Of a stretch of DNA of 41,657 nt, positions 33 through 41,657 are shown one piece after another. Where the stretch lies: the IMG/VR virus record IMGVR_UViG_3300025876_000045, positions 1-41,657 of that record, one strand, 5' to 3'. This DNA is from a virus. The translations under genes and the position numbers were made by a program. Under the pieces are notes generated by a model. It did not search any database. It was given only the letters and a program-made list of their open reading frames with translations, and had not been told where the DNA came from. How positions within the stretch are numbered: the first letter of the stretch is position 1; every line of letters starts with the position of its first letter.

Positions 33-151
33 GCACCGGGTAGAGCATGGCACCGGGTAGAGCATGGCACCGGGTAGAGCATGGGACCGGGTAGAGCATG
101 GCACCGGGTAGAGCATGGCACCGGGTAGAGCATGGCACCGGGTAAAGCATG
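33..151. repeat. 17-bp tandem array A (left-end copy), 7 units
   Basis: Seven head-to-tail copies of GCACCGGGTAGAGCATG start at 33, 50, 67, 84, 101, 118 and 135. The fourth begins GGACC and the seventh has GTAAAG. Each unit carries an interrupted palindrome ACC-G-GGT. The array is the continuation of the one at 41490-41657, but the unit order differs: the right end has one extra variant unit and more copies. Array length is therefore unstable or badly resolved. The minus strand is free of stop codons in all three frames, while the plus strand has an in-unit TAG in one frame. I regard it as non-coding. Confidence 0.95.
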
Positions 152-165
152 AAGCCAAAAAAAGT

Positions 166-279
166 GTAAATGTAAAAAAGTGTAAATGTAAAAAAGTTGT
201 AAATGTAAAAAAGTTGTAAATGTAAAAAAAATGTAAATGTAAAAAAGTTGTAAATGTAAAAAAGTTGTAAAAAAAATCC
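166..279. repeat. A-rich tandem array B, 17-bp units
   Basis: Repeats of GTAAATGTAAAAAAGTT start at 166 (16 bp), 182, 199, 216, 233 and 250, with a degenerate seventh at 267. The motif is unrelated to array A, yet the period is again 17 bp. The tract is extremely AT-rich and would melt easily, which is what one expects of a DNA-unwinding element. No unwinding or origin function can be shown from sequence alone. Confidence 0.9.
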
Positions 280-317: not shown

Positions 318-348
318 GCCCGGTGTGTGTAAAAAAAATCGGCAAAAA

Positions 349-518
349 GCCAGACGGTCCCAAATGCCAGACGGTCCCAAATGCCAGACGGTCCCAAAAG
401 CCAGACGGTCCCAAATCGTTGTGGCCTCCAAAAGCCAGACGGTCCCAAATGCCAGACGGTCCCAAATGCCAGACGGTCCCAAAAGCCAGACGGTCCCAAA
501 TCGTTGTGGCCTCCAAAA
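349..518. repeat. Array D: two 85-bp super-repeats, each five 17-bp units
   Basis: Units of GCCAGACGGTCCCAAAT start at 349, 366, 383 and 400, then a different 17-mer, CGTTGTGGCCTCCAAAA, at 417. The whole 85-bp block repeats exactly at 434-518. Each main unit has an interrupted palindrome GAC-G-GTC. The odd fifth unit preserves the 17-bp phase. It is related to the element at 759-796, which also starts GTGGCCTCCAAAA. Both strands are free of stops in all frames through the main unit, which explains the many overlapping spurious reading frames here. Confidence 0.95.
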
Positions 519-951: not shown

Positions 952-1560
952 TTAGCCATCGACATTTACATCATCAGCCTCATCCGCCTCATCCGCTTCG
1001 ACATCAATCGACCCATCCTTCAAACCCCCCTGCTGGGAAATTGCCATCTTCTCCCAAGAGTCTAAAGTGTCACCTCCTGTAGGGATGAGCATCACGCCAC
1101 CGCTAAGCTTGTGCTCGATGACATCCGGCTGGTTCTCCCCGGTCATCTTGTTGTCCATCTCTAGGGCCTGTAGCTTAGAAGGTAATTTGACAGTGGTACG
1201 CACAAGGTTCCCCTCTTTATCATACTGGCGTACTACAGACTCCACAAGCCACCCACTCGGGTCATCAGGGTTGTCTGGGTCGATCTCGAGAACATTGGCC
1301 CTGACAACACCTGCTAGGTATTTGCGCTTCTCATTCCTGGTGAGTAGGTTCTCATGATCGCTTACATCCCTGGTGATTGCCTGTAGTCGCTTGATCTCCA
1401 TCTGGATGGACTCGATACGCATTAGGTTATTACCGGCGGTCCTCGGCTGGTTCTCATCAAGCTCGTAAGCTTCAGCGTAGGCTTCGGGCACTGAGTACCC
1501 GCTTGCTATAAGCTGACAAAATTTTGATCGTTTTGGGTTGAGACCTGCATTGAGTTTCAT
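952..1560 (-). CDS. terS: Terminase small subunit (DNA-recognition subunit of the packaging motor)
   Basis: A 202-residue protein on the late strand. The N-terminal ~60 residues (NPKRSKFCQLIASGYSVPEA, then an alanine/tyrosine-rich helix) have the helix-turn-helix layout of Terminase_2-type small subunits, which bind the packaging site and hand DNA to TerL. The middle is helical and polar, and the C-terminus is strongly acidic (about the last 15 residues are mostly D, E and A). I chose the ATG at 1560 over a TTG at 1569. A promoter-like TTGAGC-N16-TATATT ends only 7 bp upstream of that ATG. terS is separated from terL (39415) by about 3.2 kb of arrays and cassette across the ends, whereas in most phages they are adjacent. 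The assignment rests on pattern and position, not on a catalytic motif. Confidence 0.75.
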   Translation of the reverse strand: MKLNAGLNPKRSKFCQLIASGYSVPEAYAEAYELDENQPRTAGNNLMRIESIQMEIKRLQAITRDVSDHENLLTRNEKRKYLAGVVRANVLEIDPDNPDDPSGWLVESVVRQYDKEGNLVRTTVKLPSKLQALEMDNKMTGENQPDVIEHKLSGGVMLIPTGGDTLDSWEKMAISQQGGLKDGSIDVEADEADEADDVNVDG

Positions 1561-1567
1561 TCCGACC

Positions 1568-1595
1568 AATATACAGTTTTCAGTTTGTAGCTCAA
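1568..1595 (-). promoter_or_regulatory. Promoter of terS, near-leaderless
   Basis: On the minus strand, TTGAGC (1590-1595), a 16-bp spacer and TATATT (1568-1573) match sigma70 boxes. The -10 ends 7 bp before the ATG at 1560, so the transcript should start at or next to the start codon. Confidence 0.55.
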
Positions 1596-5092: not shown

Positions 5093-5380
5093 ATGGAAGA
5101 AAAGTACAAATCAATCGAAGTAGAAGTAGAACTCAGCATCGGAAATGCCACTGTGCAAGTTGATGTTTATTATTACAGCAAGGAATGTAAATGTGACACA
5201 CACAGAGGTGTAGAAAGCTGGGAAGAAATCGAAATTGAGCATGTGGATATTGTGGATGCGAAAGTCTATAATCCAGACACTGGGGATTTTTTCAAATTGA
5301 ACGGCCCAGTAATGAATCATCTAACATTTACGGATGTGAACATGATCGAATCCGAAGTCGCAACTTACATGTATAACTAA
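5093..5380 (+). CDS. Small acidic beta-rich protein, unknown function
   Basis: 95 residues, alternating polar/hydrophobic strands (KSIEVEVELSIGNATVQVDV) and strong acidity. A pair of cysteines (KECKCD) and one His follow in the middle, too few for a clear zinc site. An upstream in-frame TTG at 5045 would add 16 residues over the AACCTAAAA repeats. I prefer the ATG at 5093 because the repeats look like a leader. Unrecognised. The acidic, beta-rich make-up would fit a DNA-mimic or inhibitor, but that is speculation. Confidence 0.6.
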   Translation: MEEKYKSIEVEVELSIGNATVQVDVYYYSKECKCDTHRGVESWEEIEIEHVDIVDAKVYNPDTGDFFKLNGPVMNHLTFTDVNMIESEVATYMYN

Positions 5381-5409
5381 TAGAAAAATGGATAACATCG
5401 AGCTGAATC

Positions 5410-5601
5410 ATGAATGAGCCTAAGCGAAATACATTGAATCGAGCGACTGGTTCTCGCACAGGCGGGGACTATCGGAAGCTGATCCGAAATCTAAGAAAGG
5501 GAATGGAGTCGGGAGAGTTTCGATTCTGCAAACGGTGTCGGGTGCATTATCACGCGCACAACGCCGAACACCACGAACAATGCGAGAACGATAAGGACTA
5601 G
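5410..5601 (+). CDS. Small basic zinc-knuckle protein
   Basis: 63 residues. The N-terminal ~35 are basic (KRNTLNRATGSRTGG, RKLIRNLRKG). The C-terminus has FCKRC followed by HYHAH, HH and a final C, giving a CxxC...H...C arrangement that can hold one zinc ion. Such mini-proteins usually bind nucleic acid or a host protein. One base separates its stop from the next ATG, so the two genes are co-translated. The family is not recognised and the zinc ligand choice is inference. Confidence 0.6.
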   Translation: MNEPKRNTLNRATGSRTGGDYRKLIRNLRKGMESGEFRFCKRCRVHYHAHNAEHHEQCENDKD

Positions 5602-5602
5602 C

Positions 5603-5881
5603 ATGAATGAAGTGAGGAACGAACGAAATGAATTGTCTAGCTCCGCCTTGTTAGAGGCAGAGCGTAAAGACTACTACGCAAGGCGAGAAGCCCTTGACCG
5701 TGCAATAGCTCCGCTGGTGCAAATCTTGATGGAGATAGATATACCAGTGAGAATCATCTACAACCCAAAGACTCACGAACTCAAGCGGGAGTATTCAGGT
5801 GAGACGCAGGAGCTAATGGATAAGGTGAATAAGAATATCGAAATGTTTCGAGAGCATTTCTTTCCCTCTAACACCAAGTAA
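5603..5881 (+). CDS. Small charged helical protein, unknown function
   Basis: 92 residues, highly charged, with a long helix (LLEAERKDYYARREALDRAI) followed by a short beta-like part (IPVRIIYNPKTHELKREYSG) and another helix. No motif is recognised. It starts one base after the preceding zinc-knuckle gene. Its stop codon opens a strong hairpin at 5881-5907 that separates this pair from the next genes. Confidence 0.6.
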   Translation: MNEVRNERNELSSSALLEAERKDYYARREALDRAIAPLVQILMEIDIPVRIIYNPKTHELKREYSGETQELMDKVNKNIEMFREHFFPSNTK

Positions 5882-5916
5882 TCACGCGCCGTATTCGGCG
5901 TTGTGATCTACGCTTG
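5875..5916 (+). other. Strong intergenic hairpin without T-tract
   Basis: Inner stem CGCCG-TATT-CGGCG (5887-5900), flanked by ATCAC/GTGAT (5881-5885/5903-5907) and CCAAG/CTTGG (5875-5879/5912-5916). There is no run of T, so it is not a standard intrinsic terminator. It may be an mRNA stabiliser, an RNase site or a protein-binding hairpin. Confidence 0.6.
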
Positions 5917-5943
5917 GTTATCAACCCTAAACGATAAAACACT

Positions 5944-6324
5944 ATGGACACTAGAGAAACACCGAGAACTAACTACGCAGCATACCGAGAGCATCTACCG
6001 CAAACGGGTGACTTCGAGGGCACACAAGAGCGCAATGCGGCTAGGTGGTGTAATCTACTAAACGAGGCGCGAAAAATGGAACGAGAGCTGCAAGACCTCA
6101 AGTGCATCAAGGGACTTCGCTCTGATAACTTAGATAAAATGATGCAGTTCGAAGCTGGGGAATTAAATAGCATGGAAGTGCTTGAGTTGTTTTCCAATTT
6201 AATAAAAACAGGTCAGATAAATCACCTCCAGGGTTACTACCAACGGACGGCCTTGGATCTAATTGACACAGGTTTGATAAATGGTGAAGGGGAAATTAAC
6301 AGCGAACTAACTGAAATATTATGA
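5944..6324 (+). CDS. Small helical protein, unknown function
   Basis: 126 residues, rich in charged helices (NAARWCNLLNEARKMERELQ) with a second helical part that ends in an acidic tail. No motif is recognised and there is no membrane segment. The stop TGA overlaps the next ATG as ATGA at 6321-6324, a sign of translational coupling with the conserved small protein that follows. Confidence 0.6.
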   Translation: MDTRETPRTNYAAYREHLPQTGDFEGTQERNAARWCNLLNEARKMERELQDLKCIKGLRSDNLDKMMQFEAGELNSMEVLELFSNLIKTGQINHLQGYYQRTALDLIDTGLINGEGEINSELTEIL

Positions 6325-6557
6325 TAAAAGATACAGAATATTACTTAGAAAGTGCGGACCCCGAGGCCATTCGATTTACAGGGCTTGACAGTGCCATAGT
6401 TGGCAACGATCAAAATGGGAACCTGGTCTATGAATACAATTTAATGCATAGAGAATTTATGGCTATGGGGATGAGCAACGAGGAAGCCGATGAGTGGATG
6501 GACTACAATGTCTTGCCAATAAATGCAGGTTCCGGATTCACAATAATATTTAGATAA
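6321..6557 (+). CDS. Small conserved phage protein of the EA-x-E/D-W/Y-x-D/E-Y/F-N type
   Basis: 78 residues. The pattern LDSAIVGNDQNGNLVYEYN, then MGMSNEEADEWMDYNVLPIN and a final beta strand, matches a widespread small phage protein. In that family an 'A(I/F)IG...G..VY.Y' start is followed by 'GM...EA.E(Y/W)..(Y/F)N' and a hydrophobic end. Family function is unknown to me. It is translationally coupled to the upstream gene. The match is by recollection of the pattern, not a search. Confidence 0.65.
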   Translation: MIKDTEYYLESADPEAIRFTGLDSAIVGNDQNGNLVYEYNLMHREFMAMGMSNEEADEWMDYNVLPINAGSGFTIIFR

Positions 6558-6654
6558 CCTTCAGCTCAAGTAAAATCAAGTCAAGGAAATCCAACACATC
6601 AAAACACCTAACTGATATATTAAAACCACCAACCAGCCCGGTAGGGCGCACATT
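6558..6654 (+). other. Short intergenic leader with TATATT box and small hairpin
   Basis: It contains TATATT near 6616-6621 without a good -35, and a GCCC-GGTA-GGGC hairpin just before the ATG at 6655. The hairpin could modulate access to that start codon. No strong promoter can be claimed. Confidence 0.35.
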
Positions 6655-6900
6655 ATGACTAAGAAATACACAAAGAACGATCACATGCACCACCTTAATG
6701 ACGGCGAGAAACCACTTGACCCCGAAGCAAACCAGTTGATTAAAGACAGGCTGGCAAGGGCAGGGTTAGATGGACAGAAACGCAACACCGCACCGCAGCA
6801 CATAGGCCAGTGGCTACAGGTCACACACCGGGCTGTCTTTAACCGGGACTTCGACCTATACGTTGGGTCTAATAAAATCGAGAAGCACTTCAGAAGCTAA
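6655..6900 (+). CDS. Small basic protein, unknown function
   Basis: 81 residues, basic, with a His-rich stretch (NDHMHHLNDGEK) and a middle helix (PEANQLIKDRLARAGLDGQK). No family is recognised. It is followed after three bases by the lysozyme-like gene, so the two probably share a transcript. The C-terminal VGSNKIEKHFRS is basic and may touch nucleic acid, but this is weak inference. Confidence 0.55.
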   Translation: MTKKYTKNDHMHHLNDGEKPLDPEANQLIKDRLARAGLDGQKRNTAPQHIGQWLQVTHRAVFNRDFDLYVGSNKIEKHFRS

Positions 6901-6903
6901 GCC

Positions 6904-7257
6904 ATGACATACATGACACTTATACTTGCACTTATAACGATTGAATCCGGTGGCAATGACTTTGCAATAGGAGATGACGGGAAAGCGTACGGTTGCCTTC
7001 AGATGCATGCCGCATACGTCCAGGATGCCGCTGAATATGCCGGGAAGGATTGGATCCATGAGGATGCTTTTCAAAGGGATGTGGCTATTCAGATCTTTGA
7101 GGCTTACATGGCTCGCTATGCAACTAAGGAGAGGCTAGGCAGGGAGCCAACAATTGAAGACATCGCAAGGATCCACAATGGTGGCCCCAATGGCTACAAA
7201 AAACCCTCCACAGATAAATATTGGAAAAAAGTTAAAAAATTATGGCAAAAACAATAA
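6904..7257 (+). CDS. Lysozyme-like / SLT-type transglycosylase (candidate endolysin)
   Basis: 117 residues with the fold signature of goose/SLT-type muramidases, which cut the glycan chains of peptidoglycan. Glu14 in ITIESGGND is the expected catalytic acid, YGCLQMH follows as the usual G-x-x-Q motif, and IARIHNGGPNGY supplies the conserved 'HNGG.NG' loop. The start MTYMTLILAL is hydrophobic but leads straight into the catalytic helix, so I do not call it a signal peptide. The length is that of a single catalytic domain with no wall-binding module. It is encoded in the early arm, far from the holin-like genes on the other strand. It could be the endolysin, or an early-made muramidase with another task. 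Its 3' end overlaps the next gene by 16 bp. Confidence 0.8.
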   Translation: MTYMTLILALITIESGGNDFAIGDDGKAYGCLQMHAAYVQDAAEYAGKDWIHEDAFQRDVAIQIFEAYMARYATKERLGREPTIEDIARIHNGGPNGYKKPSTDKYWKKVKKLWQKQ

Positions 7258-7496
7258 TAACTGAGGAGGCAACAACCTTGTTAATGAACAAAGCATTGTT
7301 TTTCATGCATAGTGAAGAACCAAATGAAGAACGTGCCGAGGTCATGTTCGAGCTTCTTTGCGACGAGCTACTTGAGATATTACCAGGGTATGAAAACAAT
7401 TCAAATAGAGCCAAGGTAGTTGCTGAAGTTTTAGTGCAGTTAGCAATACAGTCGGGGATTGATTTAAGTGGAACCCCCTGGGGATTAGAAGAATAA
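7242..7496 (+). CDS. Small acidic helical protein, unknown function
   Basis: 84 residues, strongly acidic and helical (EERAEVMFELLCDELLEILP). It overlaps the lysozyme-like gene by 16 bp in another frame, which suggests coupled translation. It is the last gene before the hairpin/terminator leader at 7513-7630. Given the overlap it could act with the lysozyme, but no motif supports this. Confidence 0.6.
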   Translation: MAKTIITEEATTLLMNKALFFMHSEEPNEERAEVMFELLCDELLEILPGYENNSNRAKVVAEVLVQLAIQSGIDLSGTPWGLEE

Positions 7497-7512
7497 AAGA
7501 CCCACCCTTTGC

Positions 7513-7594
7513 TTGACACGATTACAATAAACGGTTTCCGTATTAACTCATTCAATTTTTCTTGCTCACTTTGGGGTAATGTGAGTGAGAAATA
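7513..7594 (+). promoter_or_regulatory. TTGACA plus conserved ATAAACGGTTT box and leader hairpin
   Basis: TTGACA at 7513-7518 is followed by ATAAACGGTTTCCG and TATTAA (7527-7546). The same ATAAACGGTTT(T/C)C plus T-rich hexamer occurs on the minus strand at 29718-29737, next to TTGACA. Here the distance from TTGACA to TATTAA is 22 bp, too long for a simple sigma70 promoter. ACGG-TTT-CCGT forms a mini-palindrome, and CTCAC/GTGAG (7565-7569/7581-7585) a leader hairpin. Confidence 0.45.
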
Positions 7595-7630
7595 CCCGGC
7601 ACCGCAGCGGGTTATCTGCGGTACTTTTTT
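7595..7630 (+). terminator. Intrinsic terminator, possibly an attenuator with a competing anti-terminator stem
   Basis: ACCGCA (7601-7606) pairs with TGCGGT (7617-7622), followed by AC and six T. An alternative stem CCCG (7595-7598) with CGGG (7608-7611), extended by ATA/TTAT, would use the loop and part of the terminator. The two folds exclude each other. It lies in the leader of the replication gene block (7658 onward). Confidence 0.65.
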
Positions 7631-7657
7631 AAACTAAAACCAAACAAGATAAAAAAT

Positions 7658-8056
7658 ATGTCACTAGAAAATAAAATACAGATGCTTCTTGAAGCACTCG
7701 AAAGAAACACCGATGCACTTTTAAATGCATCTCTTACTAAACAGGTTGAACCTTTGATCGTTAAGGTACAAGAGCCCGAGCCAGTAGTTGAAGAGCCCGA
7801 GCCGGTAGTTGATGAGCCCGAGCCAGTAGTTGAAGAGCCCGAGCCAGTAGTTGAAAGTAAATCAACTGCAACTATTGAGGAATGCCGTGTTGTTGCTACA
7901 TACATAATCAAAAATAATAAAGACAAAACCGGCCTCTCATCTGTTCTACAAAAGAATGGTGTTACAAACTTATCATCATTTAGCGGGGACATGGATTCAT
8001 TCTTAAAAGATCTTGAGGATGCCGCTGGAGTTAAACTTGAGGACTGCCCAAACTAA
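7658..8056 (+). CDS. Acidic repeat protein preceding the DUF2800 nuclease
   Basis: 132 residues in three parts. A helical N-terminus (ENKIQMLLEALERNTDALLN) is followed by four copies of a seven-residue E-P-E-P-V-V-[ED] repeat (~residues 39-66, 21-bp units in the DNA), and then a helical C-terminal domain (TIEECRVVATYIIKNNKDKT...). Small proteins with a proline/acid linker and such a C-terminal domain often stand at the head of DUF2800/DUF2815 modules, but I cannot name the family. The repeat is an extended spacer. The stop TAA shares its last base with the ATG at 8056, so translation is coupled to the nuclease. Confidence 0.65.
   Translation: MSLENKIQMLLEALERNTDALLNASLTKQVEPLIVKVQEPEPVVEEPEPVVDEPEPVVEEPEPVVESKSTATIEECRVVATYIIKNNKDKTGLSSVLQKNGVTNLSSFSGDMDSFLKDLEDAAGVKLEDCPN
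7774..7857 (+). repeat. Four in-gene 21-bp repeats (EPEPVV[ED])
   Basis: Four near-identical copies of GAGCCCGAGCCAGTAGTTGA(A/T) encode a Pro-Glu linker. The high DNA identity implies recent expansion and possible length variation between relatives. Confidence 0.8.
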
Positions 8057-9291
8057 TGAGCACTCACTCAAAACTAGCACCTAGTGCCTCCAAGAGATGG
8101 ATGGAATGCACAAGGTCCGTAAGCTTTATCGATGAGTTAGCCGCCGAGGGCAGAATCAAACTCGGTGGCACCTCTTCATATGCTGAGGAGGGTACCCTTG
8201 CTCATGAGTTTGCTTCAAATGTACTCGAGGGTTTAATGGACCTGGATGACATACCTTTCCACCCTGAGATACTTGAGAGCGATTATGATGGCGAGGAGAT
8301 GTGTGAGGCCATAGGTAGCTATGTAAACCTAGCTAAGAGGCTTGTGAAGGAGGGAGATAAGGTGCTTATTGAAAGCTCCGTACCTCTCTTTTACAAACCC
8401 GAGGACACTGGTACAGTTGACTATGCTGTGGTGTCACAGAAAAGCGTTCAGATCTTAGACCTAAAATATGGTAAAGGTGTTGAGGTTGAAGCCAAAGACA
8501 ACTCACAGTTAGCAATCTACGCTATGTCTTTGATTGAAAACCTCTGGTCTGAAATTGATTTTACTCCGGACACAAGTGTTATCATATCGATTCATCAACC
8601 ACGCACAAGGGGTGACAACCCTACCCGTGTTTGGTCACTAAACCTAGGCGAACTAATTGAGTTCTGTAAGCCAATTACAAATGCCGTTGTAGATATTACT
8701 GAGGGCCATGACTTAGATTTCTATCCGAGCCAGGAGGGTTGTCAGTTTTGTCCTGCCAAAGGTGTTTGTTCCGCAAGAGCTGATTATGCCACAAATAATT
8801 TTAGCCGCGCTTCAATTGATGCGGTTGCTCAGCTCTCAGATTTAAAAGAAGAGCCAACTGATAAATTTGTGGGCCCAAGCTTTGAGACTCTAAGCGATAA
8901 ACAAATTGCTACTGTTGTAAACCACGGCAAAGACTTAATTAAATGGGTCAATTCTGTAACCGACGATGCCAAAGAAAGAATACTAAAAGGTCTCCCGGTA
9001 GAAGGTTTAAAAATTGTTCAAGGTAATAGGGGCCAAAGAAAATGGACTAACGAATCCGAGGCTGACAAACTTATTAAAACTAAGATCAAGTCTCAGGATC
9101 GCTACACCAAGAAACTAATTTCTTTGGCACAAGCCGAGAAGCTTCTCAAAAAAGAAACTCTATCAACTAGGTTTAAGAATCGCTTTGAGGATTTAACTGA
9201 TCGCAAACCCGGTTCACCAATACTTGTAAATGCCCAGGATGAACGTGATTCAATTATTACAGAAATCACAGATAACTTCGAAAATATCTAA
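8056..9291 (+). CDS. DUF2800 family PD-(D/E)XK nuclease with Cys cluster (RecB/Cas4-like)
   Basis: 411 residues. The start SKLAPSASKRWMECTRS, then EEGTLAHE near residue 45, GTVDYAVVS near 119 and ILDLKYGKG near 133, gives the H...D...DxK core of RecB/Cas4-like nucleases. CQFCPAKGVC near residue 228, with the early Cys, is the cluster that binds an iron-sulphur centre in this superfamily. The remaining C-terminus is basic and typical of DUF2800. In phage modules this gene sits with DUF2815, polA, VRR-NUC and SNF2 genes, as here, pointing to replication or recombination. The start overlaps the previous stop by one base. Nuclease fold and family are well supported; the in vivo role is not established. 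Confidence 0.88.
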   Translation: MSTHSKLAPSASKRWMECTRSVSFIDELAAEGRIKLGGTSSYAEEGTLAHEFASNVLEGLMDLDDIPFHPEILESDYDGEEMCEAIGSYVNLAKRLVKEGDKVLIESSVPLFYKPEDTGTVDYAVVSQKSVQILDLKYGKGVEVEAKDNSQLAIYAMSLIENLWSEIDFTPDTSVIISIHQPRTRGDNPTRVWSLNLGELIEFCKPITNAVVDITEGHDLDFYPSQEGCQFCPAKGVCSARADYATNNFSRASIDAVAQLSDLKEEPTDKFVGPSFETLSDKQIATVVNHGKDLIKWVNSVTDDAKERILKGLPVEGLKIVQGNRGQRKWTNESEADKLIKTKIKSQDRYTKKLISLAQAEKLLKKETLSTRFKNRFEDLTDRKPGSPILVNAQDERDSIITEITDNFENI

Positions 9292-9383: not shown

Positions 9384-9947
9384 ATGCAAATCGTAATCAA
9401 GAATGTCCGCCTCTCTTTTCCTAGCCTTTTCAAGGCAAGTAGCTTCCAAGGAGCGGGTGGAGAACAAACAGATCCTAAGTATTCCGCTACGTTCATTATG
9501 GACAAAGAGGAAAACGCACAGGATATCAAACGTATCCAAGATGGTATTGATTCACTAGTGAAGGAATACTTCAAGGGTAACTCAAAAGCACTCAAGGGTG
9601 TTTGCTTGCGTGACGGTGCTGAGAAGACAAATGATGATGGTTCTCCAAAGGACGGCTTTGGTGAAGGTATCATGTTTGTATCCGCATCAAACAAAAACCG
9701 ACCTCAGATTGTGGACAAGATTAAGTCCGTTCCATTAACTGAGGATGACAACAAAATGTACCCTGGGTGTTATGTTAACGCAGTTATTACACTGTGGGCA
9801 CAAAACAACAAGTTTGGTAAGCGTATCAACGCAAACCTCTTGGCCGTACAGTTTGTCAAGGATGGCGACCCATTCGGTGAAGCTCGTGTAGACGTTGGTT
9901 CTGTCTTCGATGATATCGAAGATGATTCCGATTCAATGCTCGATTAG
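9384..9947 (+). CDS. DUF2815 family ssDNA-binding protein
   Basis: 187 residues. The start IVIKNVRLSFPSLFKA, then KYSATFIMDKE and a YPGCYVNAVITLWAQNNKFG core, is the DUF2815 signature, an OB-fold-like ssDNA-binding protein of phage replication modules. The last 20 residues are very acidic and end in a hydrophobic pair (DDSDSMLD), like the partner-docking tails of SSBs. It has its own promoter and a strong terminator right after the stop, so it is probably made in excess of its neighbours. The family call is firm; the SSB role comes from the family. Confidence 0.88.
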   Translation: MQIVIKNVRLSFPSLFKASSFQGAGGEQTDPKYSATFIMDKEENAQDIKRIQDGIDSLVKEYFKGNSKALKGVCLRDGAEKTNDDGSPKDGFGEGIMFVSASNKNRPQIVDKIKSVPLTEDDNKMYPGCYVNAVITLWAQNNKFGKRINANLLAVQFVKDGDPFGEARVDVGSVFDDIEDDSDSMLD

Positions 9948-10266: not shown

Positions 10267-12285
10267 ATGGCCCTATACCACTTAGACTTTGAGACCTTCA
10301 GTTGTGCCGACCTTAAGAAGTATGGTGCTTACAGGTATGCTGAGGACCCCTCAACTAAGATCCTCCTCTGCGCTATTGCGGAGGGGGATTCAGAGCCTGT
10401 GCTTTGGTCAGTAAACGCAAGTGATAAAGAAAATGAACCAGCATTGAAACTCTTGCGTGAGGTATCTGAAAACAAAGATGCTCTGATCTATGCACACAAT
10501 TCACAATTTGAAAATGCCATCTCTAAGTACAAATGGGAGAGTACATTTTCTTTACCTGTACCGGATGTAACACAATGGCGTTGTACGGCTTCCATGGCTC
10601 GACGTGCCGCAATACCCTCAAGCCTTGCAAAGTGCGCTTCCTTCCTAGGTCTTGACCAGTTAAAGGACACTTCCGGTATGAAGCTTATTCGTATGTTTAG
10701 CATCCCAGCTTCAACGGGTGAAAACAAAGGTCTTAGATTGATGCCTGAGGATAGACCCGATGAGTTTAAAGATTTCGGATACTACTGTCTCCAGGATGTC
10801 AGGACCGAACAGAAGGTCCACAAAGCTTTAAAGAAGTTTGATCTTAAAGGTGATCCGCTAGAAGGATTTTTGTTTGACGCAAAAATGAACGACCGTGGTG
10901 TGCCAGTGAACGTAGAAGGTCTTTTGTTTACAGACAAACTAGTAAATGAATTGAACGAAAAGCTTTCGGTACAGTTTGAGAAAATCGTTGGCCTTAGACC
11001 AACCCAAACAATAAAATTTGTTGAGTGGCTCCAGTCCAAGGGATATCCTGGTAAGAACCTACAGGTTGCAACGGTCTCAGGTGTTTTGGGAACTGACCCT
11101 AAGGCAATCGGAATGGAACAGATTGCCTATGAAGCTTTAAAGATACGATCACTTCTAGGATTCGCCGCTCTCAAAAAGATACCAACCATGTTGTCGGCGG
11201 TTAACTCCGATGGGCACGTCCGTGGTGCACTGATGTGGTCCGGTGCCGAAAGGACGCACAGATGGGCTGGCAGAATTATCCAACCACAAAACTTTAAACG
11301 GCCCGAAATCAAGGACACTGAGAATTTTTACAATACCCTCTGTTCTGGTGCACTCGAGCTAGATACCTTAGAGATGCTTTATGACAACCCGCTTCTGGCA
11401 ATTGCATCTTGTATAAGGCACTTCATTCAGCCCAAGGGGGAGCGTGGATTCTTTGACGCTGATTATGCCTCGATTGAGGCAAGGATCGTTTGCTGGCTCT
11501 GTGATCAGGAGGATAGCCTTGATCTATTCAGGGCCAATAAAGATATATACAAGGTTATGTCATCACACATCTTTGGCATAGAGCCCGAGGAGGTCACCAA
11601 AGAACAAAGGTTTGTTGGCAAGCAAGCGGTCCTAGGTTGTGGTTTCGGTATGGGCGAGGACAAGTTCAAGGGTACTTGCGAGGCATATGGACAAAATGTC
11701 AGCACAGACCTAGCCAGCCGCGCAATCAAAACTTTCCGGAAGGTAAACAACAGGGTCTCAGCATCTTGGAAGTCAATCAATGAAGCTGCTAAGGCCGCTA
11801 TTAAGGCCCCAGGGACTAAGTTCAATGGCACTGACAAGGTAGTATTTTGCTACGGCAATGAGTGTGGTTTCCCCGCTCTAATAATGCGTGTACCAAGTGG
11901 CCACTGCTTGATCTATCCAAGAGCTCGGTTGGATATGGTCGAGAAGACTTACAAGGGGGACACCTATAAAAGCCAGGAGATAATATTCTGGGGTAAGGTG
12001 CCGGGTAAGTCTAACATGTGGGGCTGGGTATCAACCTATGGTGGTAAGCTTTTGGAGAATGCAACTCAAGCCGTGGCCGGTGACGTTATGTCAAACGGTG
12101 CTGTGAAGGCACAGGCCAAAGGCTATGAGATATTCATGCTGGTTCACGACCAGGCCCTTGCAAAGATCAAGCCTGGTCAAAGCATCGAAGAGTTCTGTGA
12201 GATACTATGTGATTTACCAGAATGGGCGGACGGTCTTCCAATTGAAGCGGAGGGTTCTGAGGTACCATTCTATCGCAAAGACTAA
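10267..12285 (+). CDS. polA: Family A DNA polymerase with 3'-5' exonuclease domain
   Basis: 672 residues. The exonuclease part opens with HLDFETFS (Asp7, Glu9), has AHNSQFE near residue 77 as motif II, and YCLQDVRTE as motif III near 175. The polymerase part has motif A DADYASIEARIV near 398, the O-helix region RFVGKQAVLGCGFGMG near 453, and motif C MLVHDQ near 626. All catalytic carboxylates expected of phage PolA are present. There is no 5'-3' nuclease domain, as usual in phage versions. It is the replicative polymerase and works with the primase-helicase, the SSB-like protein and the SNF2 helicase. The start follows the previous stop by one base. Confidence 0.95.
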   Translation: MALYHLDFETFSCADLKKYGAYRYAEDPSTKILLCAIAEGDSEPVLWSVNASDKENEPALKLLREVSENKDALIYAHNSQFENAISKYKWESTFSLPVPDVTQWRCTASMARRAAIPSSLAKCASFLGLDQLKDTSGMKLIRMFSIPASTGENKGLRLMPEDRPDEFKDFGYYCLQDVRTEQKVHKALKKFDLKGDPLEGFLFDAKMNDRGVPVNVEGLLFTDKLVNELNEKLSVQFEKIVGLRPTQTIKFVEWLQSKGYPGKNLQVATVSGVLGTDPKAIGMEQIAYEALKIRSLLGFAALKKIPTMLSAVNSDGHVRGALMWSGAERTHRWAGRIIQPQNFKRPEIKDTENFYNTLCSGALELDTLEMLYDNPLLAIASCIRHFIQPKGERGFFDADYASIEARIVCWLCDQEDSLDLFRANKDIYKVMSSHIFGIEPEEVTKEQRFVGKQAVLGCGFGMGEDKFKGTCEAYGQNVSTDLASRAIKTFRKVNNRVSASWKSINEAAKAAIKAPGTKFNGTDKVVFCYGNECGFPALIMRVPSGHCLIYPRARLDMVEKTYKGDTYKSQEIIFWGKVPGKSNMWGWVSTYGGKLLENATQAVAGDVMSNGAVKAQAKGYEIFMLVHDQALAKIKPGQSIEEFCEILCDLPEWADGLPIEAEGSEVPFYRKD

Positions 12286-37879: not shown

Positions 37880-39415
37880 TTATACTGGCATTCGAATATT
37901 TACATACTTTGCCCATTGCGGCCTCGCGTCAAGAACCATATATCGCGCCTCATCGTAAACGTGGTCCTCGGCATCGGTGTCAACATCGTCCAGCTTTTTG
38001 TCATCTCTTGGCAAGCTTGGGATTGTATTTATGAACGCATCACAATTGTTCATAATGTAAAGCCCGGCACCCTCGCGGTCTGTCGATCTTTCCATCATAT
38101 CCCGCATTATCTGAAAACCATTTGCTCTTGACCCAGCCTTCTTGTCAGATCGTGTCCATTCAACTCCCTCATCCTCCATCATCGAAGCAATCGAACCTGA
38201 CTCGTCTTCACTGACATTGTAAATCTGATTATCCGCCGGTCCCGGCTCAGGTTTAGTTTTTATCCACCCCAGCATGGTCAACTCTTCCTCGACCTCTAAA
38301 ACCTCCTGCGCTAATCTCCGTGCTGAAAGCTTACGGCCTTTGTTGTGGCCAAACTGCTCACCATTCACCACATCCGCGCCATAAAGCTCCGCAATTCTGA
38401 TAAGTGAATCCTTTGGAAAACATACTGTCCTATCCTCAGATATAGCAACCTCCTCACCATTCGATATCGCCCACCAGCCGACAGAGAACGGGTGACTCGA
38501 GCCCCAGTCCATCGAACGGCATATTCTCCACGAACCTGGCACCTGAAACCTCGGCACAATGTGCAAATTGCTGTTCCAAACATCATCGAACGCACCACCA
38601 GCGGTGATATCCCAGTCGCCCTCGAGCCAAGCTCGTTTACGATTCTGGTCCGTGATATTCTCCAACTCCGCAACGTACTCAGGCGATAAATACCGGTTCT
38701 CTTTGTACGAACCAAACAAACGCACCTGGGTTTTTGTGATATTCTCCTTTTTCCGAGTCCTAGGGTTGAAAATCTCAGTTGTCATCCTCTTCACCTCACC
38801 TGCCGGGACCGGGTCGATGAATCTACGCTTCACCCAATTGTGCCCGGCTCCAAATGGATTGGTCGTTGAGAACACAATCATCGGGATCGGGTCGAGCGGT
38901 TTGCCATTGGGGGTTTCGTACTGACCAGTCTTTGAATTTCGTGGCGTGTGCTCCTCGGGAACAAACGAAGAACGGTTTGTGGACATCATCACATCATAGC
39001 AAGCCGAGGTTGGATACTTTGTCAGCTCATTCCAGCCGATGAAAGGGTACTCGTGCCCGTGGTACTGATCGTAGTCGGTCTCGTCATGCATATGGCGAAA
39101 TAGCAGCTCTTCCCCAGTCGGCCACACCCACTTCAACGCTGATTGTGATGATAGAAACCTGGCACCATCATTAAACTGTGGAAACCACCGCTTTGACTTC
39201 GCAATCAAGTCATCCAGCGACTTATACTGCCGATCAAAGATAATACCACGCCAAGCTTGTCCATATCCCATTCCGACATACCGCCGAAACCTCATAAGCT
39301 GTGCATCCGTCTTACCGGGGCCACGTGTACCCTCAAATAGGATGTGATTGCACGGCGCATTCATTGCTAGTGCCTGTGAGCCTGGGAGAGGTGACCAAAT
39401 GACTTTCTGTTTCAT
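37880..39415 (-). CDS. terL: Terminase large subunit (packaging ATPase and nuclease)
   Basis: 511 residues. Walker A GTRGPGKT at 29-36 and Walker B FIGWNEL at 125-131, then MVIVFSTTN-like coupling (PMIVFSTTNPFGAGHNWVKRR). The nuclease part has RSMDWGSSHPFSVGW (first Asp) and a final DAEDHVYDEARYM, where Asp/His and Asp complete the RNase H-like site. The usual Asp of Walker B is an Asn (W-N-E) while the catalytic Glu is kept. The gene opens the late operon. Upstream lie about 270 bp of palindromes and then arrays instead of terS. Confidence 0.93.
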   Translation of the reverse strand: MKQKVIWSPLPGSQALAMNAPCNHILFEGTRGPGKTDAQLMRFRRYVGMGYGQAWRGIIFDRQYKSLDDLIAKSKRWFPQFNDGARFLSSQSALKWVWPTGEELLFRHMHDETDYDQYHGHEYPFIGWNELTKYPTSACYDVMMSTNRSSFVPEEHTPRNSKTGQYETPNGKPLDPIPMIVFSTTNPFGAGHNWVKRRFIDPVPAGEVKRMTTEIFNPRTRKKENITKTQVRLFGSYKENRYLSPEYVAELENITDQNRKRAWLEGDWDITAGGAFDDVWNSNLHIVPRFQVPGSWRICRSMDWGSSHPFSVGWWAISNGEEVAISEDRTVCFPKDSLIRIAELYGADVVNGEQFGHNKGRKLSARRLAQEVLEVEEELTMLGWIKTKPEPGPADNQIYNVSEDESGSIASMMEDEGVEWTRSDKKAGSRANGFQIMRDMMERSTDREGAGLYIMNNCDAFINTIPSLPRDDKKLDDVDTDAEDHVYDEARYMVLDARPQWAKYVNIRMPV

Positions 39416-39624: not shown

Positions 39625-39667
39625 GGGGTGCACCCCTGTTCACTAGTGAGCACCTGTTCACTAATGA
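39625..39667. other. Palindrome cluster upstream of terL
   Basis: GGGGTGCACCCC (39625-39636, perfect 12-bp palindrome), TCACTAGTGA (39640-39649, perfect 10-bp) and a near copy TCACTAATGA (39658-39667). The latter two lie in a TGTTCACTA...GAGCACCT direct repeat. They are candidate sites for a dimeric regulator or for terminase. Confidence 0.8.
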
Positions 39668-39687
39668 TCTTTTGAGCACCTATTTAT

Positions 39688-39762
39688 CTTGATATCAAGG
39701 CAAGTTGTCTTGAAGTCAAGGCAAGTTGTCTTGAAGTCAAGGCAAGTTGTCTTGATATCAAG
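39688..39762. repeat. Four 12-bp palindromes at exact 21-bp spacing
   Basis: CTTGATATCAAG (39688-39699), CTTGAAGTCAAG (39709-39720), CTTGAAGTCAAG (39730-39741) and CTTGATATCAAG (39751-39762), separated by G(C)AAGTTGT-type 9-bp spacers. The outer two are perfect palindromes, and the inner two keep both CTTGA/TCAAG arms. 21 bp equals two helical turns, so all four sites face the same side. This looks like an operator or iteron cluster for a dimeric protein. Confidence 0.9.
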
Positions 39763-39819
39763 GTAAATACGGACAATCGCACATTGTGCATTATGTCTAA
39801 TTATTAGTTGCTTGCATGT

Positions 39820-40066
39820 GCACCCGGTGAAGCATCGCACCCGGTAAAGCATGGCACCCGGTGAAGCATCGCACCCGGTAAAGCATGGCACCGGGTAAAA
39901 GCATTGCACCCGGTGAAGCATCGCACCCGGTAAAGCATGGCACCGGGTAAAAGCATTGCACCCGGTGAAGCATTGCACCCGGTGAAGCATAGCACCCGGT
40001 GAAGCATTGCACCCGGTGAAGCATTGCACCCGGTGAAGCATCGCACCCGGTGAAGCATGGCACCCG
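39820..40066. repeat. 17-bp tandem array A', 14 units plus a partial
   Basis: Consensus GCACCCGGTGAAGCAT(C/T/G), related to array A (GCACCGGGTAGAGCATG) and in the same orientation. Units start at 39820, 39837, 39854, 39871, 39888 (18 bp), 39906, 39923, 39940 (18 bp), 39958, 39975, 39992, 40009, 40026, 40043, and a partial at 40060. Most units hold CACC-C-GGTG. Higher-order order is visible: the trio 39854-39905 is repeated at 39906-39957. It flanks the GP88 cassette on the left, as array A does on the right. Confidence 0.95.
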
Positions 40067-40109
40067 TTTGTGATAAAAAAAACCGTTTTTAGGTTGCTTT
40101 ATTCAATTA

Positions 40110-40271
40110 ATGCCGCGAAAATGTGCGCTTATGAATAATAAATACACGCTGTTCGAATTGTTTTCCATTATTGCGCTTTCAGCTTTTATAGCAGGTGCAA
40201 CGCTGTACGGATTAAAACTTAGTGACGAAAGGCAGGAAAAAGAAGTCTTACGGTGGAAAGCTGGCAAGTAA
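40110..40271 (+). CDS. Small single-span membrane protein of the GP88 cassette
   Basis: 53 residues from the ATG at 40110 (or 46 from the in-frame ATG at 40131). The segment ELFSIIALSAFIAGATLYGL is a clear membrane helix, followed by a charged tail (SDERQEKEVLRWKAGK) with Nin-Cout or anchored orientation unknown. It stands directly after array A' and before the GP88-like gene. It could anchor a partner or act as a small lysis or exclusion protein. No family is recognised. Confidence 0.55.
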   Translation: MPRKCALMNNKYTLFELFSIIALSAFIAGATLYGLKLSDERQEKEVLRWKAGK

Positions 40272-40290
40272 AAGTCGTTTTCCACTTTAT

Positions 40291-40322
40291 ACATAAACAC
40301 ATAAACACATAAACAGATAAAC
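40291..40322 (+). repeat. Four 8-bp direct repeats ACATAAAC in the GP88 leader
   Basis: ACATAAAC at 40291, 40299 and 40307, with AGATAAAC at 40315, ending ten bases before the ATG at 40332. It forms an A-rich unstructured leader or a regulator-binding track. Confidence 0.8.
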
Positions 40323-40331
40323 AAAAAAAAT

Positions 40332-41213
40332 ATGAATCGTAAACAATGCATGCAAATCGTTAACGCGATAAACGACACAAGGGCAATTAAAAGCCTTTTA
40401 AATGACTGCCTGGATGAAAGGCCCAAAGCTTTAGAAAAGCGGGGAACCTGGCAATATTACGCTGAAAAGATGCTTTCCTATTTAGAGGGCGATTTGTCAG
40501 GAATTCCGCCTTTTTCAATTTTCGCGGAAAAAGGTAATAAAAAATTACCATTTGCGGCTTTCTCTTCTTTAGCTTTGGCTGATTGTCCCGGTAAAGGTGA
40601 TTGCGTCAAGTTTTGTTATTCTCTTAGGGCATGGCGATATCCAGCGGCATTTTTTAGACAGTTACAAAACAGTTTGTTGATGCGACTTAATCCCGAAGTA
40701 ATTGAAAAGGCTTTTTTAAGCCTAAAGACTGGCCGCACTGTTCGCCTATTCGTCGACGGTGACTTTAAAGATGTTAAAACTTTAAAAATGTTTATGGACC
40801 TTTGCAAAGCGCGGCCAGACCTTGACGTTTACGGTTACTCGAAAAGCTGGATGGAATTCGTAAAACTTGACGCAACTGGATATCAATGGCCGTCAAATTA
40901 CCTGACAAATGCATCTTCAGGAAGTCGACACGAACGCACGGGCCTTGCATATGCTTTCTTGAAATTGCCGGTGGTACGCGGTGATTTCTTAGCTGTCAAA
41001 GTCGATAAAGCGCATATAAGAAAAAGAGCATATCAAGACAAGACGAAACCCGGGTCTAAAGAATACCGGCGAGATGTTTTAGCAAAGCTGAGACAGATAC
41101 AAACTAAGGCCTTTGCTTGCCCCGGCAATTGCGGCAATTGTTTACCACAAGGGCGGCACGCTTGCGGCTCTAAAGACTTTGCCGGTGTTGCTATTGGTAT
41201 TGGTATTCACTAA
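40332..41213 (+). CDS. GP88-like cysteine-rich protein (putative metal/Fe-S protein)
   Basis: 293 residues. ADCPGKGDCVKFCYSLRAWRY (Cys85, 91, 95) matches the CPG...C...CY motif of the phage GP88 family. VRLFVDGDFKD (~138-148) matches its 'vR.h.sGDF' motif, and PDLDVYGYSKSW (~162-173) its 'P...f.gYTKS' motif. A second cluster CPGNCGNC...C (263, 267, 270, 278) lies near the C-terminus. Such spacing suggests an iron-sulphur or zinc site. Family function is unknown. The gene is on the plus strand within a late minus-strand region and is bounded by 17-bp arrays, so it looks like an acquired module. The GP88 match is from recalled motifs, not from a search. Confidence 0.75.
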   Translation: MNRKQCMQIVNAINDTRAIKSLLNDCLDERPKALEKRGTWQYYAEKMLSYLEGDLSGIPPFSIFAEKGNKKLPFAAFSSLALADCPGKGDCVKFCYSLRAWRYPAAFFRQLQNSLLMRLNPEVIEKAFLSLKTGRTVRLFVDGDFKDVKTLKMFMDLCKARPDLDVYGYSKSWMEFVKLDATGYQWPSNYLTNASSGSRHERTGLAYAFLKLPVVRGDFLAVKVDKAHIRKRAYQDKTKPGSKEYRRDVLAKLRQIQTKAFACPGNCGNCLPQGRHACGSKDFAGVAIGIGIH

Positions 41214-41220
41214 AAAAAAT

Positions 41221-41451
41221 ATGGAACATCTAAGCTATTTATCAACGCTGATCATAGAAAAGTATTTACCTGATTCCGAAAAAGCAAATTTGCTTTTTTT
41301 GGAAGAGTTAAGGCAAATCCTAAAAACAAAAAAAGGCGAAAAAGACCTTTTAAATTGGTTAAAAGATGACCCGGAAAGCTTCCATCTATGCATCTATGAA
41401 ATGGAAATAAGGCTTTTAAATAGGGCCGAAAGAGAAAAGGCTTTTTATTGA
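41221..41451 (+). CDS. Small charged helical protein, third gene of the GP88 cassette
   Basis: 76 residues from the ATG at 41221, seven bases after the GP88 stop. It is helical and charged (MEHLSYLSTLIIEKYLPDSE; LFLEELRQILKTKKGEKDLL) with no motif. The longer reading frame upstream only overlaps GP88 and is not needed. A terminator begins six bases after the stop. It is probably a partner of GP88. Confidence 0.6.
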   Translation: MEHLSYLSTLIIEKYLPDSEKANLLFLEELRQILKTKKGEKDLLNWLKDDPESFHLCIYEMEIRLLNRAEREKAFY

Positions 41452-41457
41452 TACAAA

Positions 41458-41487
41458 GCGCGGATTTTTTAAGGTCCGCGCTTTTTT
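41458..41487 (+). terminator. Intrinsic terminator closing the GP88 operon
   Basis: Stem GCGCGGA/TCCGCGC (41458-41464/41475-41481) and six T (41482-41487). It is the same sequence as 1-29. Array A starts two bases later. Confidence 0.92.
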
Positions 41488-41489
41488 GT

Positions 41490-41657
41490 GCACCGGGTAG
41501 AGCATGGCACCGGGTAGAGCATGGCACCGTCTAAAGCATGGCACCGGGTAGAGCATGGGACCGGGTAGAGCATGGCACCGGGTAGAGCATGGCACCGGGT
41601 AGAGCATGGCACCGGGTAGAGCATGGCACCGGGTAGAGCATGGCACCGGGTAGAGCA
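41490..41657. repeat. 17-bp tandem array A (right-end copy), 9 full units plus partial
   Basis: Units of GCACCGGGTAGAGCATG start at 41490, 41507, 41524 (variant GCACCGTCTAAAGCATG), 41541, 41558 (GGACC variant), 41575, 41592, 41609 and 41626, and a cut unit at 41643. The copy at 33-151 lacks the 41524 variant and has fewer units, so the array is longer or more variable than either end shows. Confidence 0.95.

Follow-up and report, generated by a model that had tools for sequence, protein, structure and literature searches.

Operator and iteron arrays of phages and plasmids are direct repeats in noncoding control regions. The arrays of the phage locus reported here resemble them as noncoding direct repeats of 15–21 bp with dyad cores, but in this case the copy number drops to zero in one relative. 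Phage moron, or accessory, hot spots have their own operon against the late direction, a terminator, and a variable presence and content, as does the present locus. It differs in that several distinct short tandem arrays bracket the slot and in that one address, beside the terminase, is used in several lineages with GP88-family genes as the recurrent cargo.

The vrRNAs of VIPR carry 9–16 YNNGG repeats (PMC13142463). Like VIPR, the locus is phage-borne and has repeat-bearing noncoding flanks, but the window (the whole stretch of DNA analyzed, 41,657 nt) has neither GGY/NN pentanucleotide repeats nor a RAMP protein. The start-associated sequences of cluster K mycobacteriophages (PMC3203893) have a parallel in L021-type phages, where a conserved element lies 8–10 nt before the starts of the slot genes. 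That element (CAGTTTGCGGANCTGTAAAACCGC) differs from them in sequence and in its pseudoknot-like pairing potential, and the window has ATAAACAC octamers in its place. The element is found in L180, L189, L220, and 11 other loci; its GCGG/CCGC and CAG/CTG segments could pair in the manner of an H-pseudoknot, and a comparison with Rfam gave no match. For PF17338 (GP88, gene product 88), both a protein of the window and a slot protein of L189 score above the Pfam cut-off. A literature search found no paper naming the Pfam accession PF17338 or a GP88 family.

The interval between terL and terS

The window belongs to a marine tailed phage of ~41.6 kb, with a TerL 55%–61% identical to those of the best-matching isolate phages (Variovorax, Pseudomonas, Stenotrophomonas, Sulfitobacter, Escherichia, and others). 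TerL lies to the left of the cassette interval and TerS to the right, both on the minus strand (Table 1). In the isolated relatives examined, terS (or the gene replacing it) is adjacent to or overlaps terL and runs in the same direction, whereas in the window the two are ~3.2 kb apart and the cassette is oriented against both. The cassette module would therefore be an insertion or an expansion at the terS–terL junction. The minimum of the cumulative GC skew (at 39334) adjoins the repeat region, but gene direction switches there too, so that it is not decisive for an origin. No tRNA or tmRNA genes and no Rfam families were found in the window, and a scan of genome contigs returned five MAG loci only. 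In L051, positions 8919–8987 (minus strand) give a borderline tmRNA match in Rfam (47.9 bits for a threshold of 47) over only 69 nt, with ARAGORN negative; the match is probably spurious.

Table 1. Coordinates of the terminase genes, the cassette, and the repeats in the window
Feature	Position	Strand	Basis or remark
Terminase large subunit, TerL	37880..39415	-	Pfam Terminase_6N 1.7e-6; PHROG phrog_2 5.5e-31
Two TTCACTA copies, 18 bp apart	39639..39663	+	Sequence
21-bp array, dyads CTTGA-NN-TCAAG, ~3.7 copies, operator-like	39687..39763	+	Sequence
Array A′, GCACC-S-GGTRAAGCATN, 17–18-bp units, 14 full and one partial	39820..40066	+	Sequence, TRF
Membrane miniprotein, 53 aa	40110..40271	+	Relatives favor inner start at ~40131
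Octamer microsatellite, (ACATAAAC)n	40291..40323	+	Immediately before the GP88 start codon
GP88-family protein, 293 aa	40332..41213	+	PF17338 1e-15; alignment; AF2 model
Small charged protein, 76 aa, helical	41221..41451	+	No family match
Intrinsic-terminator-like hairpin, GCGCGGA...TCCGCGC then T6	41458..41487	+	Read directly; loop exceeds scanner limit
Array A, 17-bp units GCACCGGGTAGAGCATG	41490..41657	+	Sequence, TRF; reaches right record end
Array A continuation at left record end, 7 units	33..151	+	Record ends overlap
Array B, 17-bp A+T-rich units AAAAAAGTTGTAAATGT	158..271	+	Sequence
Array C, 17-bp units AAATGCCAGACGGTCCC	345..501	+	Sequence
Terminase small subunit, TerS	952..1569	-	PHROG phrog_51 1.1e-12

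A preliminary description of this DNA had placed a plus-strand operon (membrane miniprotein, GP88, helical protein, terminator, in that order) between terL and terS, bracketed by arrays A′ and A in the same orientation and with the same 17-bp period. The arrangement and its coordinates are confirmed, with the qualification that two A′ units are 18 bp long. The two bracketing arrays are both real, but the count was too low, as the 21-bp array and arrays B and C share the interval. In A′, 12 units are GCACCCGGTRAAGCATN and the two 18-bp ones GCACCGGGTAAAAGCATT; all copies in A and A′ are direct. The record ends overlap imperfectly within array A, so that its copy number is an assembly estimate (a near-identical contig, L009/L089, has 8 units). 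Array C presents homogenization within the array, from CCC to CTC. The dyad CTTGA-NN-TCAAG occurs four times in the window, always inside the 21-bp array, and L021-type phages have an 18-bp array of the word TTCACTA at the site equivalent to that of its two copies in the window. TRF gave scores of 367, 308, and 224, but none above 63 when 50 random windows (dinucleotide model) were scanned, which excludes a chance origin of the arrays. Both L051 (at 9440–9530; ATTGAGACTCAAT, three times) and the window (at 39687–39763; CTTGANNTCAAG, four times) have TTGA...TCAA-armed palindromes next to the first array, on the side that faces terL.

The window protein belongs to PF17338, with 58.7 bits for a curated cut-off of 24.4. 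Seven cysteines in two groups (85, 91, 95 and 263, 267, 270, 278), invariant in the alignment, are kept across 38 GP88 homologs together with a set of charged residues. For the confident AF2 model (pLDDT 92.8), no solved relatives were found, either by sequence or by fold at E ≤ 0.001. In a viral structure library, Foldseek matched the model with GP88 proteins, one Gp37/Gp68-like protein, and, weakly, radical-SAM proteins; the cysteine spacing is C-x5-C-x3-C (radical-SAM motif, CX3CX2C). GP88 may be a metal-binding enzyme, perhaps with an Fe–S cluster. Close GP88 proteins were not found in phage and plasmid records, the cassette proteins match none of the known defense families of PADLOC, and no sigma-70-like promoter reached the threshold on the plus strand of the region. 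Octamers of the (ACATAAAC)n type directly precede cassette-gene starts also in L090, L092, and L093, with varying copy number.

Arrays in relatives with and without GP88

Six records share 97%–99% TerL protein identity with the window phage. In L010/L092, 15-bp arrays lie on both sides of a GP88 that is 95% identical to that of the window; the left one has 12 units in L092 and 6 in L091. The start of such an array is present in L108, and L093 has a composite array made of other units. In L090 (TerL 99% identical), there is no A′ array but GCACCCGTTTGTG only, and the miniprotein is kept with the first 50 residues of GP88 (76% identical). A further phage, L168 (TerS 97.5% identical), has a 15-bp array A beside arrays B and C. 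Extra genes between array and GP88 vary from record to record. Since phages with nearly identical TerL or TerS differ in the unit length, copy number, and presence of the arrays, the arrays change at a far higher rate than the terminase genes, as far as can be read from metagenomic contigs that are non-independent and in which array lengths may be mis-assembled. In L010/L092, a stretch with a gene for a small acidic protein is tandemly duplicated between the miniprotein and GP88.

Around GP88, arrays are clearly enriched. In a set of 60 GP88 loci from other lineages than that of the window, the share of bases in tandem arrays is 3%–5% up to 300 bp from GP88 and ~0%–0.2% beyond 1.5 kb, and, on the same contigs, 14/105 noncoding gaps near GP88 hold arrays versus 0/109 far gaps. 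The enrichment misleads, since GP88 and the arrays have their address in common. In 36/36 loci with an identified terL, GP88 lies beside the terminase genes and diverges from terL, and the terminases belong to at least two PHROG groups (phrog_2 and phrog_9). Arrays accompany GP88 in 17 of the 25 loci with terL at <3.5 kb and in 3 of the 15 with terL farther away or not found. Among 25 loci with an L021-type TerL, they occur upstream of terS in 7/9 with GP88 and in 13/16 without it (absence called by HMM over whole records), and their share of the 4.5 kb upstream is 1.85% and 2.50%, respectively. The late genes on the downstream side, 63 kb in all, contain 0 bp of array. Because junctions free of GP88 carry arrays too, the arrays go with the junction address and not with GP88 across the ~40 loci compared, which are non-independent, so that these figures are counts and not probabilities. 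The preliminary description had proposed searching relatives for GP88 with arrays on both sides; this holds for L010/L092 (15 bp), but not for L090, which lacks A′, nor for five loci with GP88 and no arrays (L017, L019, L026, L044, and L086). In L297 (phage C75C1, TerL 74% to the L021 type), the junction at 5150–7831 has neither arrays nor GP88, and its neighbors carry the annotations amidoligase and gamma-glutamyl cyclotransferase.

Among 2.9 million contigs, no more than three viral records contain a certain 23-mer of array B; two of these records are from phages whose terminases are unrelated. In L051, which has a phrog_9 terminase and a GP88 54% identical to that of the window, copies of the 17-bp unit (TGTAAAAAAGTTGTAAATG) are found on both sides of GP88, at 9531–9630 and 11356–11566, in opposite orientation. 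In L169, the 23-mer is present in a record without GP88.

Exchange of the genes between the arrays

The TerL proteins of L180 and L189 are 98% identical. The two loci align over the left flank and the left arrays, and again over the right flank and the right array, with unrelated genes in between. The preliminary description had suggested a search for swapped cassettes; this pair, with the same arrays around unrelated genes, is the one clear case examined. The slot protein of L189 (297 aa) is also a GP88 by Pfam (1.3e-25, above the cut-off), but BLASTP gives no alignment with the window GP88 (E = 1.8). On the other hand, the GP88 of the window is 91% identical to that of L180/L021, yet the two are flanked by unrelated arrays. 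Different GP88 proteins thus stand between the same arrays, since L180 and L189 share arrays while their GP88s do not align. In the loci aligned here, array sequence follows the phage backbone and not the GP88 allele.

The joints of the swap lie within the bracketed interval, near the promoter side and the terminator. As the L180/L189 alignment extends 60 bp past the left arrays and resumes ~190 bp before the right array, the exchange joints are not in the arrays themselves. Slot gene content differs also in L090–L093 and among L180, L189, and L220. The bracketed interval therefore stands as a module, with a content that changes between close relatives, but the idea that it recombines through its arrays does not, the joints of this one swap being outside them.

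Readings of the slot and of its arrays

We favor, with a probability of roughly 0.55, a reading of the terL–terS interval as a hypervariable slot for accessory genes, in which the flanks carry repeats that are predicted multi-copy binding sites and GP88 is cargo. The cassette is a separate operon with a terminator and is replaced or changed in close relatives. The slot would be part of the noncoding control region that adjoins the packaging genes, at the terminase/late–early junction. An operon of exchangeable genes, frequently with GP88, runs in it against the late direction; it is closed by a terminator and has the arrays outside it on both sides. The arrays would be putative cis-acting sites in multiple copies (operator- or iteron-like) for a phage or host protein acting at the junction, and would grow, shrink, and homogenize by slippage or unequal recombination. 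GP88 would be carried as cargo and would not be the array-binding protein; genes may be exchanged via homology in the promoter, the terminator, and the backbone flanks rather than in the arrays.

Fixed arms around a free center are typical of dimer-binding sites. In the units of the window lineage, the arms ACC-N-GGT are kept with C, G, A, or T at the center (the left arm is GCC in the 15-bp arrays), and, in the 21-bp array, the arms CTTGA/TCAAG are kept across the lineage with the centers TA, AG, or CG. Because the arms are fixed while the centers are free, the arrays are probably binding sites for a protein, present in multiple copies within a divergent control region. Such a site is unlikely to be vital, since A′ is dispensable in L090.

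The main rival takes the arrays as neutral satellites, functionless products of slippage in a long noncoding stretch. It would fit the range of copy numbers (0–14) and of units (15 bp, 17 bp, composite) at ~97%–99% TerL identity, the many unrelated unit sequences, and the homogenization in array C, and purely neutral arrays would look much the same as the predicted binding sites. The other noncoding gaps of the GP88 contigs are array-free, however, and both the dyad-symmetric cores with a free center and the rare array-B 23-mer shared by phages with unrelated terminases argue against neutrality, which we regard as possible but rather unlikely. Given their position next to terS and terL and their absence from the late structural genes, the arrays could also be sites (pac or cosB-like) at which TerS binds to initiate packaging. 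A TerS-specific site should drift slower than is seen, as array A has 15-bp or 17-bp units where TerS is 97.5% identical, without the conservation expected, and A′ is missing in L090 despite the nearly identical TerL; a packaging site is thus very unlikely.

The preliminary description had favored a cassette that recombines through its arrays, or whose GP88 or another protein binds them. The motif and period shared by left and right arrays in each genome (17/17 in the window, 15/15 in L010) point that way, as does the enrichment of arrays within ~1 kb of GP88 over the rest of the same contigs. But the shared junction address accounts for the enrichment, array type is independent of the GP88 allele, and the swap joints are 60–190 bp away from the arrays, which makes this reading highly improbable. 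GP88 as the array-binding or array-recombining protein was rejected on the GP88-free junctions with arrays and on the allele and joint comparisons. Three sequence comparisons refute the idea of an array-linked GP88 system: arrays occur in 13/16 junctions without GP88, array types are independent of the allele, and the joints of the one clear swap are outside the arrays. GP88 without arrays, arrays elsewhere without a cassette, and a lack of binding or recombination at the arrays had been named from the outset as contrary to the proposal, and most of this is now seen in the sequences. A guide-like RNA encoded by the repeats, as in the phage-encoded VIPR (PMC13142463), would fit a protein gene that a phage carries between long noncoding flanks with repeats, and A′ RNA folds somewhat better than shuffles (z = −2.36); the window and six related loci have no GGYNN run >4 (the longest in the window is 3), GP88 has no RAMP match, and its model matches no solved fold at E ≤ 0.001, so that we give this reading hardly any credence. 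A restriction-site decoy (CCNGG in every unit) was rejected, CCSGG and CCWGG being not depleted elsewhere in the window, and so was CRISPR, the units running head-to-tail with no unique spacers between them.

Beyond the accessory slot favored above, the junction might be a locus of inter-phage competition or immunity, with dyad arrays that evolve in concert on its two sides and are read by one fast-evolving phage or host protein, and with GP88-family enzymes (possibly Fe–S, radical-SAM-like) as exchangeable effectors that many unrelated phages have beside their terminase genes, although we hold this to be quite unlikely. With the tempting but wrong lead of a GP88 acting on arrays removed, two testable regularities are in place. 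In several lineages of marine phages, the terminase/late–early junction is marked by hypervariable short arrays. GP88-family genes occur at this junction and diverge from terL, next to terminases that belong to at least two groups. The remaining interest lies in this recurring address of GP88 and in the fast evolution of the dyad arrays. The fixed address suggests that GP88 may act as infection begins or in phage–phage conflict, and it offers a handle on a large protein family.
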